From positions 1 through 22,364 of the IMG/VR virus record IMGVR_UViG_3300032092_000286: a DNA stretch of 22,364 nt; one strand, given 5' to 3'. Origin of the DNA: a virus. Below, one piece after another: positions 6,750 through 17,490 of the stretch; position 1 is the stretch's first letter; the number at the start of each line of letters is the position of its first letter. The notes below the pieces were generated by a model. It was not told the DNA's origin. It saw only the letters and a program-made list of their open reading frames with translations, and made no database searches. A program made the position numbers and the translations under genes.

Positions 6750-6976
6750 TAGTCTACCACTCCAACAAAACGTTGTGCCCACTCGCGCCAGTCGGTATAG
6801 AAAAATGGATCAGGAACATTCTTTTGGCTAAGTCCAGAGATTACGCAGAACTGTTGCCCCCACTCTTGCCATTTCGTTTCATCGTCCAGTCTTGAGAGTG
6901 CTCCGTAGGTTGACAGGTCCATTACGACCTGATCGGCCCAATCGCGCAAGCCCATTATAGCGGGTTGCGTGATCAC
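6749..6976 (-). CDS. Small conserved phage protein, Trp-rich
   Basis: This encodes 75 residues from a GTG that overlaps the stop of the tail protein gene (GTGA), with AGAGGG upstream; an internal ATG at 6955 (residue 8) is an alternative start. It contains the segments W-A-D-Q-V and, near the C-terminus, P-D-P-F-F-Y-T-D-W-R-E-W-A-Q-R-F, a Trp-rich amphipathic helix pattern. I have seen proteins ending in a similar D-W-R-x-W-A-x-R-F block next to tail genes in other phages, but no function is known to me. It lies between the large tail protein and the ACP-like gene, with overlaps at both ends, which supports it being real and co-translated. Confidence 0.8.
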   Translation of the reverse strand: MITQPAIMGLRDWADQVVMDLSTYGALSRLDDETKWQEWGQQFCVISGLSQKNVPDPFFYTDWREWAQRFVGVVD

Positions 6977-8619
6977 GTGGAACCCTCTACAACGCCACCA
7001 AGCATAGAGCCATCGGCTTCACCAACGTGAGCAATGATCTGGCCCATCTGATAGTCACCGTTGATGGTGTTAGAGGTAAACTTAAATCGCAGTTCGCGCC
7101 GTTCTTCTTTGAACCAGACGATCTGCTCGTAAGGGGTAGCGGGCTCTGCATAGATTGTGCGCTCAGGTCCTTGAACTTCCAGCGCCTTGGCGTTGGCTCG
7201 TCCTGTCAGCTGAACAGTCATGTTTCCAGACTGCACAAAGTCAGGCTCAATGGCCTCAACCCGGATCCACTTGTTCTTAGATCCTCCTGAAGGAACCAGC
7301 ATACTCATGTCAGCCGTCTCAAAGTAAGAAGGAACAGCCGTGATGAATTGGCCGTCAATCTCGTTGACGTCATGCTCGTGCTGCCAGACCTTATAGCCTT
7401 CCTCGGGGACAGTGACACGCTGGTCACCTGCTTCCGTGATCCTAAGATCACTTGCCTCGGTGATCCGGTTGTTTGACACAAAGGTGGAAGTTTCTAGACC
7501 GCACAGAAATGGGGCAGCATAAATAGGCGACCATTCGCCAGCCGTCCGTCCGCTGTTAGGCAGTACAGTGTCATACCAAGTATTTTCGCGAACGTTGTAG
7601 ATGATGGCATGGGTGCATTCAGTTGCATCTCCGCGCGGATAGCACCACCAAATCTCACCATACCTAGGGACCTTGTAGGCCCACACACGTTGAGCAGCAG
7701 CCCTGTTTATACCGTCATAAAAGTAGTTGATGTTCAGGTTGTTAGGGATCTCTCGAACTACACCGTTAAACATCAGCATGCGGTCAGTACCTAACCAGTA
7801 ATAGATGCCGTCGTATTCAATGACCGAATTGGCTGACAAGATGCTGGAATAAGGGCTGATCGTGTCAAACTGGAAGATCTCGGTGCCTCCTACAAAAGAA
7901 GCCCGTATGACTGCATCCGCACTCCAAAAGAGACCTGCTGGAGCGTTACCTGGACCGCCTCGAAGTGCCAAAGCCCTGACAATCTTTTGACCTGCTACGC
8001 GGGCATTGCCTGAACCTACGCCTGTCAAGTCTGTTGGGGCTCCTGCAACTGACCAGCCAACGACACCGTCATTGCCAAAATACATCAGGTAGGGGTGCAG
8101 GGCTACTACGCCTCCCGTGGCACTGACGCCAGCAGGAAATGTCGTGATCTCAGTCAGGCGATCTGTCCCGGTCATGCTGCCAATAAAAATCTGACCGCCC
8201 TCAGTGTTGCAAAGACATCCTGCATTTGGAGCTACTTGGGCAACAATCATGTTTGCAGCCGGTATGGACTGCGTGTCATAGATTACGTCAAACTGCCAGA
8301 GGTTGTCGTCGCTGACGTTGTAGGTCATCGGAGTGCGGTCAGTGATCAGGCTTGTGTTGCCGCTTGCGTCAATGGTAAAACGCTCAACAAAGCCAGAACT
8401 GCCAGAATGGAAATAAGTCAGGCCGTTCTCTGTGAACGTCTTAACTCCACGGCTGATCTCCGTCAAGTATCTGTTGATGACGGTATAACCTCCAACCTTA
8501 CGAGGAAGGCCCCGTTGCCAACGGACCCATTGGCCGTCGACGTGGTAGTCGCCCTCGTACCTGGTACCATCGCGCTTGATGCCGGGCAGCGACTTCAGGA
8601 TGACTGGGGTTGTTGCCAT
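6973..8619 (-). CDS. Tail hub/nozzle-type protein, P22 gp10-like (beta-propeller expected)
   Basis: This encodes 548 residues; the ATG overlaps the upstream stop as TGATG. The N-terminus holds P-G-I-K-R-D-G-T-R-Y-E-G, then G-Q-W-V-R-W-Q-R-G-L-P-R-K-V-G-G-Y (about 12-45), a block typical of podovirus tail proteins that bind below the adaptor ring and close the DNA channel. The rest is beta-rich with many aromatic residues and repeated segments of the type Y-Y-W-L-G-T-D, Y-G-E-I-W-W-C-Y and N-V-R-E-N-T-W-Y, which suits a beta-propeller. The paired R-I-T-E-A-x-D-x-R and V-T-V-P-E-E segments at about 385-410 form a short internal repeat. Context supports this role: an adaptor gene lies two genes upstream. 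Equivalence to gp10 is inferred from motif style; a homologous nozzle protein of SU10-like phages is the alternative. Confidence 0.72.
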   Translation of the reverse strand: MATTPVILKSLPGIKRDGTRYEGDYHVDGQWVRWQRGLPRKVGGYTVINRYLTEISRGVKTFTENGLTYFHSGSSGFVERFTIDASGNTSLITDRTPMTYNVSDDNLWQFDVIYDTQSIPAANMIVAQVAPNAGCLCNTEGGQIFIGSMTGTDRLTEITTFPAGVSATGGVVALHPYLMYFGNDGVVGWSVAGAPTDLTGVGSGNARVAGQKIVRALALRGGPGNAPAGLFWSADAVIRASFVGGTEIFQFDTISPYSSILSANSVIEYDGIYYWLGTDRMLMFNGVVREIPNNLNINYFYDGINRAAAQRVWAYKVPRYGEIWWCYPRGDATECTHAIIYNVRENTWYDTVLPNSGRTAGEWSPIYAAPFLCGLETSTFVSNNRITEASDLRITEAGDQRVTVPEEGYKVWQHEHDVNEIDGQFITAVPSYFETADMSMLVPSGGSKNKWIRVEAIEPDFVQSGNMTVQLTGRANAKALEVQGPERTIYAEPATPYEQIVWFKEERRELRFKFTSNTINGDYQMGQIIAHVGEADGSMLGGVVEGST

Positions 8620-12561: not shown

Positions 12562-12714
12562 TTATTCCTGTACTGGTTGCTCAGGGGCAGCAGTCTGCGC
12601 TTGAGCTTCTTTTTGAATGGCGTCTACCAGCTGAAACACATCCGCATAGGGTCGTGTTCCAAGATACTGCAATATGCCGTTTACGAGGTTTGTTGAGAGT
12701 TTGATGTCGTTCAT
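12562..12714 (-). CDS. Small conserved phage protein, 50 residues
   Basis: I translated 50 codons from the ATG at 12714, which overlaps the upstream stop (ATGA) and has TTGGAGC upstream. The protein begins M-N-D-I-K-L-S-T-N-L-V-N-G-I-L-Q-Y-L-G and continues with P-Y-A-D-V-F-Q-L-V-D-A-I-Q-K-E-A, forming two predicted amphipathic helices, then a Gln/Ala/Pro-rich tail. Small proteins with the same pattern (L-x-x-L-G-x-x-P-x-x-x-V-x-x-L-I/V-x-x-I-Q) are common beside tail and lysis genes in environmental phages, without a known function. Coupling at the start, a good ribosome binding site and uninterrupted packing support it as a real gene. Confidence 0.78.
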   Translation of the reverse strand: MNDIKLSTNLVNGILQYLGTRPYADVFQLVDAIQKEAQAQTAAPEQPVQE

Positions 12715-13055
12715 GCTAGCTCCAATGCTTTCCAAGATTGAGTTTCTTCATTCCAAGCGTACGGGCCGCCCTCTGTCGGCATAGCCACAGGAGCATCCCA
12801 CAGGCAAGTGTCTTCATTAAGTAGCCAAGAGGCAAAGGGTTGTGGCGGTATAAACGCATCACGTTGCTCGTCATAGGTATACCCAATGCCAGCATAGTTT
12901 TTACGCAAAGGTCTGTTTTCTGGGTGTTGACCGCCATGCGTGTTGTATGAGGTTTGCACCCATCCGTGACCAAAGATGCCAGAGTCAATGACATCTTGTT
13001 CGGCAACGATGACCTGAACTACTAACCCGTTTTCTACTTTTGCAAAGTGCGACAC
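12711..13055 (-). CDS. Conserved phage protein, Trp/Pro/Tyr-rich, possibly fibre-associated
   Basis: I choose the GTG at 13055, giving 114 residues (V-S-H-F-A-K-V-E-N-G), because a strong AAGGAG sits upstream and overlaps the stop of the adhesin gene. A longer version from 13163 would read through the adhesin gene in another frame. The protein has the blocks V-V-Q-V-I-V-A-E-Q-D-V-I, G-W-V-Q-T-S-Y-N-T, L-R-K-N-Y-A-G-I-G-Y-T-Y-D, R-D-A-F-I-P-P-Q-P-F-x-S-W-L-L-N and C-L-W-D-A-P-V, then a Trp-containing end. I know this arrangement from proteins of marine phages encoded beside tail fibres; their role is not established. A minor virion or fibre-assembly part is plausible from position only. Confidence 0.82.
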   Translation of the reverse strand: MSHFAKVENGLVVQVIVAEQDVIDSGIFGHGWVQTSYNTHGGQHPENRPLRKNYAGIGYTYDEQRDAFIPPQPFASWLLNEDTCLWDAPVAMPTEGGPYAWNEETQSWKALELA

Positions 13056-13065
13056 TTGTTTCTCC

Positions 13066-15501
13066 TTAAAAAGTAATTGTTCCAGAAGCGGTGAATGTGT
13101 AGATGTAGTTACCGCCACTTGTTGTAAATGTTGGCGAACCAGTTGTTGATTTTGCGGGAGCAAAAGAAGTTGAGTAGGAAATAATCACAATACCAGAACC
13201 GCCATTGCCGCCATCATTAAGTCCAGTACCGTTACCGCCACCTCCACCACCCGTATTAGTTGTTCCAGCATATTTATTGGCATCTCTTGAGCCGTTTCCG
13301 CCGCCACCTGACCCGCCGCTTCCGGGTGTACTGCCCCCTGCTGTAGTAGCGCCTCCGCCCCCTCCACCAGCGTAAGTTACGCTAGAACCAGAAAGGCTTG
13401 AAGAGGAACCCGAACCACCATTTCCTCCGTTTTGTGCGCTAGGGGCGTTACTACCAGCACTACCTGCTCCGCCACCGCCACCGCCACCATTAGAACTACC
13501 ATTACCGCCATTATTTCCTTGCCCGCCCGTGCCAGACCCACCAGAACCACTGGTATAACCGCCGCCACCGCCAGAGCCGCCAGTACCGCCAGTACCGCCA
13601 GTACCGCCGCCACCGCCACCAAGTGAAGTAATTGTAGAAAATACTGAATCACTTCCATTTGCGCCAGCGCCACCACCACCGCCAACAGTTGCTGTGTAAG
13701 TCGTGCCAGAGGCTACGGATAGCGTTCCAGTTCTAAAACCACCAGCGCCAGCGCCACCAATATAGCCGCCACCACCGCCAGCAACAACCAGATAACTGAC
13801 CGATGAAGGTGGTTGACCAGACAAAGAACCGCTAGATGTAAACGTGTGAATTGTGTTGCCGCCAGAAGTAGTGACCGTTCCACCAGTAAACTTTTGCGGG
13901 GAGGTGTAAGAGATGATGACTACGCCAGAGCCGCCAGCAGCGCCAGAGCCGCCACCTGCATCACTAGAGCCACCAGCACCGCCCAAAACACCAGCGGCAG
14001 GATTTGGGCCATCTTGTGCGCCTCCACCGCCCCCACCTAGGTTTGCAGTTCCATTACTTCCAGCAGTTTTATTGGTTTGTGCGGCATTGCCACCACCACC
14101 CAAGCCACCAGTTCCGTTTGTGACGTTAGTTCCACTAGGCGAGAAGTTACCACCGCCACCACCGCCAGCGTAGTAAGTAGATGTTCCAGAAATTGATGAG
14201 GCTACGCCTACGCCACCATTACCACCGCCAGATGTAGTTCCGTTTGTTCCTACTGCGCCAGCACCACCGCCACCGCCACAACCTCGGTTGCCTGTAGTTA
14301 CGCCTGTACCGCCAGCAAAGCCTTGACCAGATGTGCCTGTACCTGCGGGTTGGTCATATCCACCTCCGCCACCAGAACCGCCTGATTGACCAGCAGAAAT
14401 TACAGTTCCAGATTGAGCGCCACCGCCTCCACCTCCCACAGCAGACGTAGCATACGCACTAAATAATGAATTAGTGCCGGGACTTCCATTTGCTGTGGTT
14501 GAATTGTTTGCGCCACCTGCGCCTCCAGCACCAACAGTAACAACATAGTTAGAGTTGGTATCAATGGTTAGACCAGAGCCTGATAACAGACCACCTGCAC
14601 CTGCACCACCACCTGAACCACCACCTCCACCAGCAACAATCAGATAACTCGCTGTCAATGCTGACAAAGGAGATAGTGTTCCTGATGTGTTGAATGTGTG
14701 AATGAAGTTACCGCCTGATTGGGTAACAGTTCCACCACCAAATAATTGTGTTGCGCTTGTGTATGAAATGATGACTACGCCAGAACCGCCAGAGCCTCCG
14801 CCACCTGCGCCTCCGCCTCCGCCGCCACCTCCTAGGTTAGCAGTGCCAGCTGTTCCTGTTGAACTAGCGCCACCTCCACCACCAGAGCCGCCCGTGCCTT
14901 GGGTGCCAGAGCCGTCGCAACGACCGCCACCGCCACCGGCATAAGTAACTGATGTTCCTGTAATGCTTGATGCCGTACCAGCACCACCATTTCCACCCAC
15001 ACCTCCAGTTGCAGTTGCTCCAACCGCGCCAGCGCCTCCACCACCTCCTGCTGCCGAAATGTTTGCTCCATCAGTCGCAGAGCCAGCGCCACCTGCGCTA
15101 CCCTGACCAGATGTTCCTGCGCCACCAGTTCCGCCACTTCCACTTCTTCGAGTACCACCGCCACCAGAGCCCCCACTTGAGCCGGCCGTGTTAGATGCAG
15201 AAGCGCCTCCACCACCTCCGACTGAGGCTGTCAACGAACCAAATTGAGAATTTGTTCCATTTGATCCATTGACTGAAGAAACTGCCCCGGCACCACCTGC
15301 GCCAACGGTGACCGTATATGAAAGAGTTGGGTTTAAAGAGGCTGTGCTTGTTAGATAACCGCCTGCACCACCGCCCCCGCCAACGTCATATCCCCCTCCA
15401 CCCCCACCAGCAACCACAAGGTAACTAGCAGATACAGACGATAGTCCTGTCCACCCGAAAGCAGCTAATGCAGCAGCACCAATCTTGGATAAGCGAGGCA
15501 T
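13066..15501 (-). CDS. Glycine-rich three-module tail adhesin
   Basis: This encodes 811 residues. The ATG is nine bases after the upstream stop, with TAAGGA as ribosome binding site. The N-terminus M-P-R-L-S-K-I-G-A-A-A-L-A-A-F-G-W-T is a likely attachment segment. Three tandem modules follow, starting with S-Y-L-(V/I)-V-A-G-G-G-G-G near residues 26, 285 and 570. Each has long runs of Gly with Ala, Ser and Thr and ends in S-G-(V/I)-V-I-I-S-Y, then a short beta segment (T-x-S-G-G-N-x-I-H/Y-T-F). This resembles the glycine-rich adhesin tips of T2/S16-type phages, whose Gly runs pack as polyglycine-II helices and bind receptors with loops between them. Its place after two fibre genes fits a fibre tip. 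The receptor role is inference; the modular layout is plain. Strong codon bias (Gly GGT/GGC) makes the plus strand look like CCACCGCC repeats. Confidence 0.85.
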   Translation of the reverse strand: MPRLSKIGAAALAAFGWTGLSSVSASYLVVAGGGGGGYDVGGGGGAGGYLTSTASLNPTLSYTVTVGAGGAGAVSSVNGSNGTNSQFGSLTASVGGGGGASASNTAGSSGGSGGGGTRRSGSGGTGGAGTSGQGSAGGAGSATDGANISAAGGGGGAGAVGATATGGVGGNGGAGTASSITGTSVTYAGGGGGRCDGSGTQGTGGSGGGGGASSTGTAGTANLGGGGGGGGAGGGGSGGSGVVIISYTSATQLFGGGTVTQSGGNFIHTFNTSGTLSPLSALTASYLIVAGGGGGSGGGAGAGGLLSGSGLTIDTNSNYVVTVGAGGAGGANNSTTANGSPGTNSLFSAYATSAVGGGGGGAQSGTVISAGQSGGSGGGGGYDQPAGTGTSGQGFAGGTGVTTGNRGCGGGGGAGAVGTNGTTSGGGNGGVGVASSISGTSTYYAGGGGGGNFSPSGTNVTNGTGGLGGGGNAAQTNKTAGSNGTANLGGGGGGAQDGPNPAAGVLGGAGGSSDAGGGSGAAGGSGVVIISYTSPQKFTGGTVTTSGGNTIHTFTSSGSLSGQPPSSVSYLVVAGGGGGYIGGAGAGGFRTGTLSVASGTTYTATVGGGGGAGANGSDSVFSTITSLGGGGGGTGGTGGTGGSGGGGGYTSGSGGSGTGGQGNNGGNGSSNGGGGGGGAGSAGSNAPSAQNGGNGGSGSSSSLSGSSVTYAGGGGGGATTAGGSTPGSGGSGGGGNGSRDANKYAGTTNTGGGGGGNGTGLNDGGNGGSGIVIISYSTSFAPAKSTTGSPTFTTSGGNYIYTFTASGTITF
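13581..13607 (-). repeat. Three tandem copies of a 9-base unit inside the adhesin gene
   Basis: The plus-strand unit cagtaccgc occurs three times in a row and encodes Gly-Gly-Thr repeats in module 3 of the glycine-rich adhesin. Its length is a multiple of three, so copy number changes would lengthen or shorten a glycine helix without breaking the frame. Confidence 0.85.
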
Positions 15502-15510
15502 CTTTTGTCC

Positions 15511-17490
15511 TTATGCGAACTTGGTTACGGAAGCCAGGACTGTAAACGCGGCGCTGCCTGTCTTGATGATTACGTAGGTGTAACTATCAATTGAGCTTGC
15601 ATTTCCGCTGGTAGGAGCAGTTCCCCCTTGCCACTTTGGAGTCACTGAGGAACCGTCTACTTGAACAGCAGAGTTGTAATAGGCAGTAGCACCATTGGTC
15701 ACCAAGAAGGTAGCCGAGATAGATTCGCCAGTCTGCATCACAGTGTTAAGTGACGTACCGCTTGAGCCTCTGAAGTTGACTGTGAAGTTACCAGATGCGT
15801 TGGTCGTGTAGTACAGGACTGATTGGGTCGTGACATCGTAATTGATTGTGCCTGTTGCCGCAGTTGCAGAGATGGTGTTTACCTCGGCAATGTTTGGAGT
15901 CTTAAAGGCAGACTCAGATGAGGAGCCAGTCGTCTGTAGCAGTGAGGTGGGTGTGGTTGTCCCAACACCCACATTGCCAGCAAAGTAGTTATCGGCAGTA
16001 CCACCCGCATAAAAGTTATAGCGATTTGTGCCGCTTCCTATGTTGGAATAGAAACCGTAGTTGTTGGTTGCACCTGTAAGGCCATTGTCTACATAAAAGC
16101 CATATTGGTTTGTTACAGTAGAGCCAACACCGAATGTTCCTTGGGCGGCTAAATAATGATACAGACTTGGCAACGTAAATGCCGTTGCTTGTGTAGCTGC
16201 GCCACTTCTAAAATATTGAGCATTGCTTGTTGCATCTGATTGAATAGTTCCAGTTGAAGCAATACCAACTGGCGCTGTTGAGCCAGTCATGTTTTTACTA
16301 ACACGCAATGAATAGCCAGTAAGAGAAGTAGTGCCTACGCCTAAAGCGCCAGTCAAATAATTATCAGCAGTACCATTCATGTACAGGTTGTAAGTGTTTG
16401 CGGCGGAAGCAAGATTTCCGTAGAAGCCGTAGTTATTGGTTGCCGCAGACATGGTGCTGTCAGCAACAAAGCCATATTGACTTGTTACTGCACCAGTAAA
16501 TGTTCCCGGATTTGCCCTGAAATGGCGCAGGGTTGGTATAGCGCCTGAAGTTGTAGGGCGAGATAAGAAAGTGTCAGTGCCACTTGAAGCCGCAGGAAAA
16601 TCTCCACGGGCTGATACAACTTCTGAAATGTTTGAACTAACTGGATATGTTCCGCCAATTCCAAGTTTTTGGTAATTTGCGGTAGAAGCGCCAATGCCTA
16701 CGTTACCAATGCTGTCAATCCTCATACGCTCAGTAGGCGTACTTGCACCATCAGCAGTGGTGCTAAAGACCAAGCGACCGGGCATATCACCTGTGCCGGG
16801 AGTTCCGTCTACTTCTGCAAGAATACTTGCCGCTTGAATTAAATCAGTTCCATCGGCCCCAAAAAAGAATAATGTACCAAGGTCATCACCAGACTGCACA
16901 ATGGTGTTTGTGCCTACTGTTGCGCTCCTAGATTTTGATAAATATATGCCGTTTCCGGTCGCATTTGCTGAGTATCTTCCTGACCATATACTTCCGTAGT
17001 TTCCAGCACCTAGCTGCTGAAATGCTGGAGTTAAGGTATTGATTGTTTGCGCTGTGGTAATTCCGACAAGCAAATTTCCACTTGTGTCAATTGCAACGGG
17101 CGTTGAATCAGGATTGGTCGAGTCCTCAACAAGTAAGGCATTACCTGTACCAAGCTGAGTGATACGCAAAGCGGCATTGGTGTTGTCGGTTACTTCAACA
17201 ATCGTGGCCTTGGAGTGCGTAAAAATTCCCGTTGTGTCAGCAATACTTGCCGAGGCTGTACCGTCCTTTGCCTTGATGTTGGTGACTTCGAGGTTGGTCG
17301 TGTCTACTGTGGTAGTGTCAATCGTACTTGGATTGGTACCAATCTCAACGACGTTGCCGCCACTGTCTTTGGTGTACAGACGCTTGGTTGCCGTGTTAAC
17401 AGCAAGCTCAGCGCCTCCAGCTGCATTGGTCAGGTCACCGGCAACCGGAGCCCCTGCCGTGTCCTTTTTCTTAGTCAGAATTGTTGTCAT
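15511..17490 (-). CDS. Tail fibre protein, modular
   Basis: This encodes 659 residues. The ATG overlaps the upstream stop (ATGA) and a strong GGAGGA lies upstream. The N-terminus (1-60) has A-E-L-A-V-N-T-A-T-K-R-L-Y-T-K-D-S-G-G-N-V-V, a block typical of the virion-proximal end of phage fibres. About 165-270 contains S-G-R-Y-S-A-N-A-T-G, S-G-D-D-L-G-T-L-F-F-F-G-A-D-G-T-D and a stretch ending in T-E-R-M-R-I-D, a domain widespread in phage fibres. Residues about 335-515 hold two related Y-G-F / A-T-N-N-Y-G-F-Y / G-T-A-D-N-Y units. The C-terminal 120 residues (L-V-T-N-G-A-T-A-Y-Y, V-T-P-K-W-Q-G-G-T-A-P, ending T-V-L-A-S-V-T-K-F-A) match a common marine-phage fibre end. No hydrolase motif is seen. 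It probably builds a fibre together with the neighbouring 730-residue protein and the glycine-rich adhesin. Confidence 0.82.
   Translation of the reverse strand: MTTILTKKKDTAGAPVAGDLTNAAGGAELAVNTATKRLYTKDSGGNVVEIGTNPSTIDTTTVDTTNLEVTNIKAKDGTASASIADTTGIFTHSKATIVEVTDNTNAALRITQLGTGNALLVEDSTNPDSTPVAIDTSGNLLVGITTAQTINTLTPAFQQLGAGNYGSIWSGRYSANATGNGIYLSKSRSATVGTNTIVQSGDDLGTLFFFGADGTDLIQAASILAEVDGTPGTGDMPGRLVFSTTADGASTPTERMRIDSIGNVGIGASTANYQKLGIGGTYPVSSNISEVVSARGDFPAASSGTDTFLSRPTTSGAIPTLRHFRANPGTFTGAVTSQYGFVADSTMSAATNNYGFYGNLASAANTYNLYMNGTADNYLTGALGVGTTSLTGYSLRVSKNMTGSTAPVGIASTGTIQSDATSNAQYFRSGAATQATAFTLPSLYHYLAAQGTFGVGSTVTNQYGFYVDNGLTGATNNYGFYSNIGSGTNRYNFYAGGTADNYFAGNVGVGTTTPTSLLQTTGSSSESAFKTPNIAEVNTISATAATGTINYDVTTQSVLYYTTNASGNFTVNFRGSSGTSLNTVMQTGESISATFLVTNGATAYYNSAVQVDGSSVTPKWQGGTAPTSGNASSIDSYTYVIIKTGSAAFTVLASVTKFA
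15952..16107 (-). repeat. Fibre repeat unit B (52 codons)
   Basis: This is the second copy of a 52-codon unit in the 659-residue fibre, from Q-Y-G-F to G-V-G-T-T-T. The other copy is at 16324-16479. Shared residues include A-T-N-N-Y-G-F-Y, Y-N and G-T-A-D-N-Y. Third codon positions differ, so this is an old duplication or module exchange rather than a fresh copy. Confidence 0.75.
16324..16479 (-). repeat. Fibre repeat unit A (52 codons)
   Basis: This is the first copy of the 52-codon unit, from Q-Y-G-F to G-V-G-T-T-S. It has exactly the same length as the copy at 15952-16107, so the unit is a complete structural repeat of the fibre shaft. Confidence 0.75.

Follow-up and report, generated by a model that had tools for sequence, protein, structure and literature searches.

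A candidate receptor-binding fibre tip with up to three glycine-rich heads, encoded by three adjacent genes of a phage fragment

Described glycine-rich tips and the present locus

Among the closest described systems is that of the lake phage Pam3, for which the gp24-gp25 complex has been solved (7YPX; PMC9608196). There, gp24 carries a TNF-like and glycine-rich head with a conserved stem and a variable tip, there being one head per chain in a homotrimer that has its own alpha-helical baseplate-docking domain, and gp25 is a small chaperone with an N-terminal beta-sandwich and a C-terminal helical trimerisation domain. The Pam3 fibre (7YFW) and Bxb1 gp33 and gp29 contain polyproline-II-type bundles according to PMC13243192. 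In T-even phages, the adhesin gp38 (S16, 6F45; PP01, 9V85) is borne at the end of a separate fibre and shows glycine motifs and hypervariable loops; the literature on T-even gp38 and Pam3 describes single heads with such loops (PMC12892980, PMC6851490). A TNF-like/glycine-rich fold is also present in the TG domains of ALK and LTK, which in contrast are ligand-binding animal receptor tyrosine kinases. Furthermore, a tail fibre and its chaperone are shared between distant phages in the case of Alteromonas phage A5/V22 (PMC10579305), although these are other fibres and chaperones, and the word 'glycine' is absent from the main text of that paper.

The window analysed here is the whole of a 22,364-base IMG/VR virus fragment. 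Three adjacent genes on its minus strand, namely the fibre gene fib2 (15511..17490, 659 aa), an adhesin gene (13066..15501, 811 aa, ATG at 15501) and g13 (12711..13055, 114 aa, phrog_7759, GTG start after AAGGAG), would together make a receptor-binding fibre tip, a reading to which we give a probability of about 0.8. The parts of this cassette, their linkage, the replacement of modules and the loop bias are seen in sequence comparisons. We infer a mechanism in which fib2 ends in a conserved tip domain onto which the adhesin would dock via a 17-residue N-terminal plug, while three TNF-like/glycine-rich heads would turn their glycine-rich loops outward from the fibre, so that these contact the cell surface; g13, a putative small chaperone, would bind the heads while they fold. 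Specificity could then shift when recombination replaces one head or when single loops change, and also when other domains replace heads (either LamG, SPRY or DUF7483 following two or three heads, or else DUF7483 or LamG joined to the plug with no head between).

As in Pam3, the candidate tip combines TNF-like/glycine-rich heads with a small protein whose first half resembles the gp25 beta-sandwich. Unlike Pam3, it can carry as many as three heads on one chain, its 17-residue plug follows a fibre encoded separately, and its chaperone candidate is shorter and lacks a helical trimer domain. Compared with T-even gp38, the core fold differs by alignment, no gp38 Pfam match is found, and three heads, a short plug and a separate chaperone candidate are present. 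If this reading holds, common and unannotated genes of aquatic phages would become readable, since plug, heads and helper can be told from the sequence, and it would be possible to assign loop sets to hosts; the cassette would also offer a natural example of a receptor-binding tip altered head by head.

The source phage is likely a podovirus, judging by one of its proteins. The product of 6973-8619 has 53% identity with a protein of the Caulobacter phages GB2A, RW, RLK and KcrB, and it finds less similar matches that carry the annotation 'phage stabilization protein'. Among relatives of this stabilisation gene, a PF21722 gene is present in 3 of the 11 records searched (L003, L012 and L013; the proteins of the last two are identical, and that of L014 is a part of it), and by motif in 6 of the best 80 loci, many of which are short. 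Where fib2 itself finds matches in the stabilisation-gene loci, 9 of 16 are restricted to its first 55-65 residues (best segment per gene, among the matches listed, which cover 44 of 80 loci). Given that matches often stop after the fib2 N-terminus and that PF21722 genes are few, the tip region is often replaced in this phage group.

The adhesin modules and their predicted fold

The adhesin is made of three modules, each holding eight variable segments: module 1 (14761..15426, residues 26-247, 222 aa), delimited by motifs, Pfam and fold match, module 2 (13906..14649, residues 285-532, 248 aa), delimited by motifs and Pfam, and module 3 (13174..13797, residues 569-776, 208 aa), in which one variable segment has only 3 residues. 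Between them, the alignment and the model place linker 1 (14650..14760, residues 248-284, 37 residues), formed of beta-strands, and linker 2 (13798..13905, residues 533-568, 36 residues), and the chain closes with a C-terminal strand unit (13069..13173, residues 777-811, 35 residues) that is like the linkers in kind; all lie on the minus strand. The start motif SYL[VI]VAGGGGG begins at residues 26, 285 and 569 and the end motif G[VI]VIISY finishes at residues 247, 532 and 776, the last residue of each module. The sequence-only reading had described three units sharing a start block and a V-I-I-S-Y end block, and both blocks do occur three times in the 811-aa frame. Its unit size of 240-285 residues agrees with the start-to-start distances (259 and 284) or with the last unit plus its 35-residue tail (243), but the modules proper measure 222, 248 and 208 aa.

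The Pfam family PF21722 (Gly_rich_2) matches the adhesin in three stretches with E 1.2e-43 and 150 bits, above the curated cut-off of 24.3, and 36 other three-module proteins, picked by length and then checked for module number, align with it at 53-70% identity. Since both lines agree, the three-module pattern is not a product of chance. Proteins of the same family and of similar length are already in databases as 'glycine-rich domain-containing protein' (e.g. UniProt A0A6J5SA97, 808 aa). In the open-licence papers searched, PF21722 or Gly_rich_2 was named in none and no description was found of such tandem heads, the plug, a g13 chaperone or head exchange; similar proteins are thus known as 'glycine-rich domain', while apparent novelty lies in the logic of the cassette and in the exchange of heads. 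PDB sequence searches with the adhesin yielded nothing useful and a search with its profile only three monobodies (E 0.12-0.37), and tblastn and megablast against 50,697 phage records returned no match, to which little weight is given as low-complexity filtering was on. On the plus strand, the proline-rich open frames at 13913-14173 and 14702-14944 (86 and 80 codons) seem to be antisense reflections of the glycine codons and not genes.

The AlphaFold2 model of the single adhesin chain (37 sequences) has a mean pLDDT of 85.5 and a pTM of 0.54. DSSP assigns its long glycine stretches to no helix and no strand, and places strands at both module ends and in the linkers. Using VIA-align, the best alignment of module 1 was obtained with chain Q of the Bxb1 tail tip (9d93_Qa of 9D93; Z 13.1, rmsd 3.0, 160 residues, 37% identity), a part of a mycobacteriophage tail tip; module 1 also aligned with the Pam3 fibre 7ypx_A (Z 12.1, rmsd 3.0, 162 residues, 31% identity), so that the predicted module 1 displays a head fold of the Pam3 gp24 type; with ALK/LTK, Z was about 5 to 5.7. 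These matches rest on module 1, modules 2 and 3 being barely covered, and Foldseek of the adhesin against the PDB was weak (best E 0.019, Pam3 E 2.7). S16 gp38 (6F45) was absent among the structural matches listed, an absence that excludes nothing. Structure prediction thus supports a TNF-like/glycine-rich head that resembles Pam3, Bxb1 and ALK more than T-even gp38, an analogue whose sandwich is borne on a beta-helix; the sequence-only reading had set the adhesin beside T-even-like tips. Based on the match to structures with polyproline-II-type bundles (PMC13243192), the modules may adopt polyglycine-II packing. The N-terminal alpha-helical baseplate-docking domain of Pam3 gp24 has no counterpart, module 1 starting at residue 26 with only a short plug before it.

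The docking peptide and the chaperone candidate

The C-terminal tip domain of fib2 (15514..15990, minus strand, residues 501-659) matches phrog_5906 over residues 506-658 and is the putative docking site of the plug. The latter comprises adhesin residues 1-17 (15451..15501, minus strand; MPRLSKIGAAALAAFGW), for which a helix is predicted at low confidence over residues 2-14; the mean pLDDT of residues 1-20 is 47. A PDB sequence search with fib2 gave nothing useful beyond a surface-anchor protein (E 3e-4). In the window, 9 bases separate fib2 from the adhesin, which is hence encoded directly after the fibre that it would cap, as is typical of gp38. Loci found with the adhesin usually have the fib2 tip domain directly upstream and g13 downstream, and rarely the fib2 N-terminus.

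We collected 135 distinct cassettes, counted when the tip domain had at least 300 bases behind it, from the best 80 loci per search (adhesin, stabilisation gene, tip domain and g13); 67 came from tip-domain loci, 52 from adhesin loci, 11 from g13 loci and 4 from stabilisation-gene loci, to which the window was added. Among the matches listed, the gap between tip domain and adhesin is 8-10 bases in 95 of 135, and the open reading frame that follows is glycine-type in 115, glycine-rich in 2 and of another kind in 18, shares that are biased because the cassettes came from mixed search seeds; the last class, moreover, holds three doubtful rows, namely a broken glycine-type gene (L143), a short frame without plug (L175) and a second short frame in L233. 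The frame of L175 (5465-6019) contains cysteines and is possibly an insertion in the cassette. A plug follows the tip domain in 133 of the 135 distinct cassettes listed, the two misses being doubtful frames; these cassettes also served to train the matrix, and the scoring omits each own 17-mer but not those of close relatives. The commonest plug is that of the window, and other adhesin types carry for instance MPLLGTRGAASAQGFGF.

The plug is present in 54/54 glycine-type genes behind a tip domain versus 0/9 without a tip domain upstream (one of the nine being a fragment, a piece in L143), and the plug score exceeds the threshold in 158 of 161 frames behind a tip domain versus 72 of 2175 elsewhere in a random sample of 3000 frames, a cleaner background than an earlier control (110/2216) that contained adhesins. 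Ten alternative, non-glycine proteins were scanned with Pfam; one matched DUF7483, one LamG and one DUF4883, one had sub-threshold beta-propeller repeats and six gave nothing. One docking peptide apparently serves unrelated adhesin types, and similar starts occur in cultured T4-like cyanophages and roseophages. By eye, the gene behind the tip domain has a like start in P-SSM7, CRP-3 and ctXG6705; S-CAM22 has a further tip-like gene in between, and in Syn30, S-SCSM1, CRP-738 and DSL-LC01 the start is more distant or unclear. The 'sericin 1 precursor-like' genes of the T4-like cyanophages S-CAM22 and P-SSM7 (L326, L327) are distantly related to the fib2 tip domain, and the genes after them encode glycine-rich proteins that begin in a plug-like way.

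The third gene, g13, is tied to the glycine-type adhesins. In the tip-domain loci among the matches listed, it lies at most 1.6 kb behind the adhesin in 33 of 37 glycine-type cassettes (one of them only glycine-rich) versus 0 of 16 others (p 3e-10), or 33/37 versus 0/13 without the three doubtful rows (p 6.7e-9); 4 of the 37 show no g13. Conversely, 78 loci among those listed were seeded with g13, of which 12 were dropped for too little sequence and 9 as duplicates, and in the 57 usable ones a glycine-rich frame is immediately upstream in 50, within 2.5 kb in 4 and lacking in 3. Out of 37 phage records with g13, seven named phages were viewed, and g13 is directly behind the module gene in six (CRP-207, CRP-143, Melnitz-3, phiPsal1, HTVC025P and Bellamy) and away from it in S-TIM4. 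Some g13 proteins (L012, L085) end in long proline-valine-glutamate repeats.

The g13 model (mean pLDDT 90.4) aligns with the Pam3 chain 7ypx_a, which has 162 residues, the same as gp25 (Z 5.8, rmsd 2.3, 52 of 114 residues, 29% identity; Foldseek E 0.036, prob 1.00). Although a Z of 5.8 falls in the range where chance arrangements occur, this chain was the only match with Z of at least 2 among the 32 aligned, and it pairs g13 residues 1-70 with residues 3-56, the gp25 beta-sandwich being residues 1-55, the fibre-head-binding part. No helix follows residue 25 in the model, so that the C-terminal helical trimerisation domain of gp25 has no equivalent; the second half of g13, outside the fold match, is rich in tryptophan. 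A PDB sequence search with g13 gave a single match at E 0.43. Module 1 fits the 7YPX fibre and g13 the 7YPX chaperone, and thus two genes of the cassette point separately to both partners of one solved complex. Structure prediction hence supports a chaperone fold, and g13 probably acts as a chaperone that binds the heads during folding.

Two other identities have to be weighed against these matches. The strong link of g13 to glycine-type adhesins and the resemblance of its first half to the fibre-binding domain of gp25 speak for a chaperone, so that a second binding protein (a lectin) or a permanent tip component seems unlikely to us, if well short of far-fetched: weak matches to PA-IL (LecA) are seen in 16 of the 90 members of the g13 family alignment (best E 0.015), the fold match leaves the second half uncovered and the gp25-like helical domain is lacking. 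As regards the adhesin, a longer member of the T-even gp38 family with a polyglycine sandwich borne on a beta-helix would account for the order of fibre then tip adhesin and for glycine motifs alternating with variable segments, and a gene directly behind the tip domain of a spring-water podovirus is annotated 'phage tail fiber adhesin gp38'. We nevertheless hold this to be very unlikely, given that the Pfam scan down to E 0.1 returned PF21722 alone and no gp38 family match (PF05268, which we take to be the gp38 model), that the best module 1 alignments are with TNF-like/glycine-rich heads and that each chain has three heads. No beta-helix carrying a polyglycine sandwich was among the chains aligned with module 1, which is no exclusion. 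Furthermore, one short N-terminal helix is predicted at low confidence, against a three-helix attachment domain described for S16.

Module number, exchange and loop variation

Among the matches listed, 103 complete adhesins have no module (18), one (19), two (3), two with a tail (20), three (37) or three with a tail or insert (6), and never more than three. The 37/103 share is inflated by the search; in a hand count of the 55 complete adhesins found by the tip domain, 10 have three modules without tail, 4 three with a tail or insert, 10 two with a tail, 2 two, 14 one and 15 none. The sequence-only reading had set a tandem triple against the single tip of T-even adhesins; three heads are indeed present here, but the triple is not rare (37/103; 10/55). 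Seven long adhesins were scanned, the tails and inserts of which include LamG, SPRY and DUF7483, with no further Pfam match in L201. At L149:3218-6997, three single-module glycine-rich genes with unlike N-termini precede g13, and no fib2 tip domain was found there.

Each module opens with a strand that leads into glycine and closes in the reverse order, glycine leading into a strand. Taken with DSSP and with the description of Pam3, this suggests that both module ends lie at the base of the head. A long rod, the other arrangement that had been envisaged, is therefore unlikely, and a stacked rod was put aside; the heads would probably stand side by side, the pTM of 0.54 being compatible with several arrangements. 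The same geometry, which leaves no tip-to-base stacking, makes it very improbable that the modules are a mere spacer or rod that lifts another binding site and binds no receptor itself, even if two or three of them precede LamG, SPRY or DUF7483 in some relatives like a stalk; moreover, amino-acid changes sit in the loops, and the 37 of 103 adhesins with three modules end after the third one with only a unit of 34-40 residues. The reading of the gene product as a probable fibre-tip adhesin, in which every one of the three glycine-rich heads has a loop set of its own, is supported.

More tentatively, and with the odds rather against it, the three-module chain may be a covalent pseudo-trimer that replaces the homotrimer of single-head fibres and puts on one shared plug three different loop sets, each of which can be replaced separately, in which case single-head relatives with the same plug (19/103, one broken) would be the homotrimeric form. 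It is favoured because heads never exceed three in the 103 adhesins and both head ends are placed at the base; in addition, 91 of 108 modules have their nearest relative at the equivalent position of the chain, and linkers are of near-constant length, mostly 38-39 and 35-38 residues (L179, L202 and L214 differ). It is disfavoured because relatives with two heads and another domain exist (20/103), each chain has one plug and the pTM is only 0.54; position means, too, are little different (0.59-0.62 within and 0.57-0.58 between positions).

In the alignment of 37 three-module proteins (A1, with the beginning of L097 placed manually at MPRL), a threshold delimits eight variable segments per module between the glycine motifs, and conservation at the amino-acid level is seen in the plug and the linkers. 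Variation by whole modules was examined at the DNA level in the window and L003 and in four further locus pairs. The modules of the window and L003 are only 0.59-0.67 identical, with identical codons at 0.37-0.51 of identical residues and with indels, whereas the linkers (0.85 and 0.98), the C-terminus (0.94) and nearby genes (g13, endolysin, g10464, fib3 and stabilisation, 0.89-0.97) are well conserved; fib2 stands at 0.70 and its tip domain at 0.85. Near-identical module pairs number six among 189 modules, all six in the same position. L104 and L107 have modules 1 and 3 in common and differ in module 2 (0.95, 0.64, 0.97), and module 1 alone is shared by L141 and L185 (0.95, 0.63, 0.60) and by L138 and L293 (0.97, 0.64, 0.58). 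In L117 and L164 modules 1 and 2 are shared (0.99 and 0.89), and other sequence, which includes a SPRY domain, stands in place of the third. The plug stretch is 0.79-0.88 identical in these four pairs, versus 0.95-0.99 for the module 1 that they share.

Linker identity is 0.98 and 0.90 in L141/L185, 0.82 and 0.90 in L104/L107, 0.92 and 0.74 in L138/L293, and 0.66 and 0.58 in L117/L164. The idea that linkers act throughout as conserved joints of exchange was rejected on this range of 0.58-0.98, so the module and not the linker would be the constant unit that moves; the main reading does not rest on linker conservation. Exchange of single heads between phages suggests how the recognised surface changes.

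Within near-identical modules, amino-acid changes fall in 17 of 336 loop codons versus 10 of 591 framework codons (odds 3.1, p 0.007), small counts pooled over four of the six module pairs (L164 lies outside alignment A1), and silent changes favour the framework (15/336 versus 55/591, p 0.007). The hypervariability that had been anticipated among relatives is hence observed, and neither module number, which runs from 0 to 3, nor the loops are fixed. By comparison of sequences, variation is two-fold, with replacement of whole modules while others are kept and with amino-acid changes focused on loops. The latter could also be expected if point mutation or a diversity-generating retroelement, and not recombination, had produced the module differences. 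This we regard as extremely improbable: whole modules of the window and L003 differ even at silent sites, with indels, beside linkers kept at 0.85-0.98, in other pairs a shared module lies next to one that is not shared, and no reverse transcriptase (PF00078) is found in the 22,364-base record, itself a fragment.

In one phage group (L093-L096), three glycine-rich genes occur together with two copies of g13, and the plug is seen only in the gene behind the tip domain, one of the others being cut at its start.
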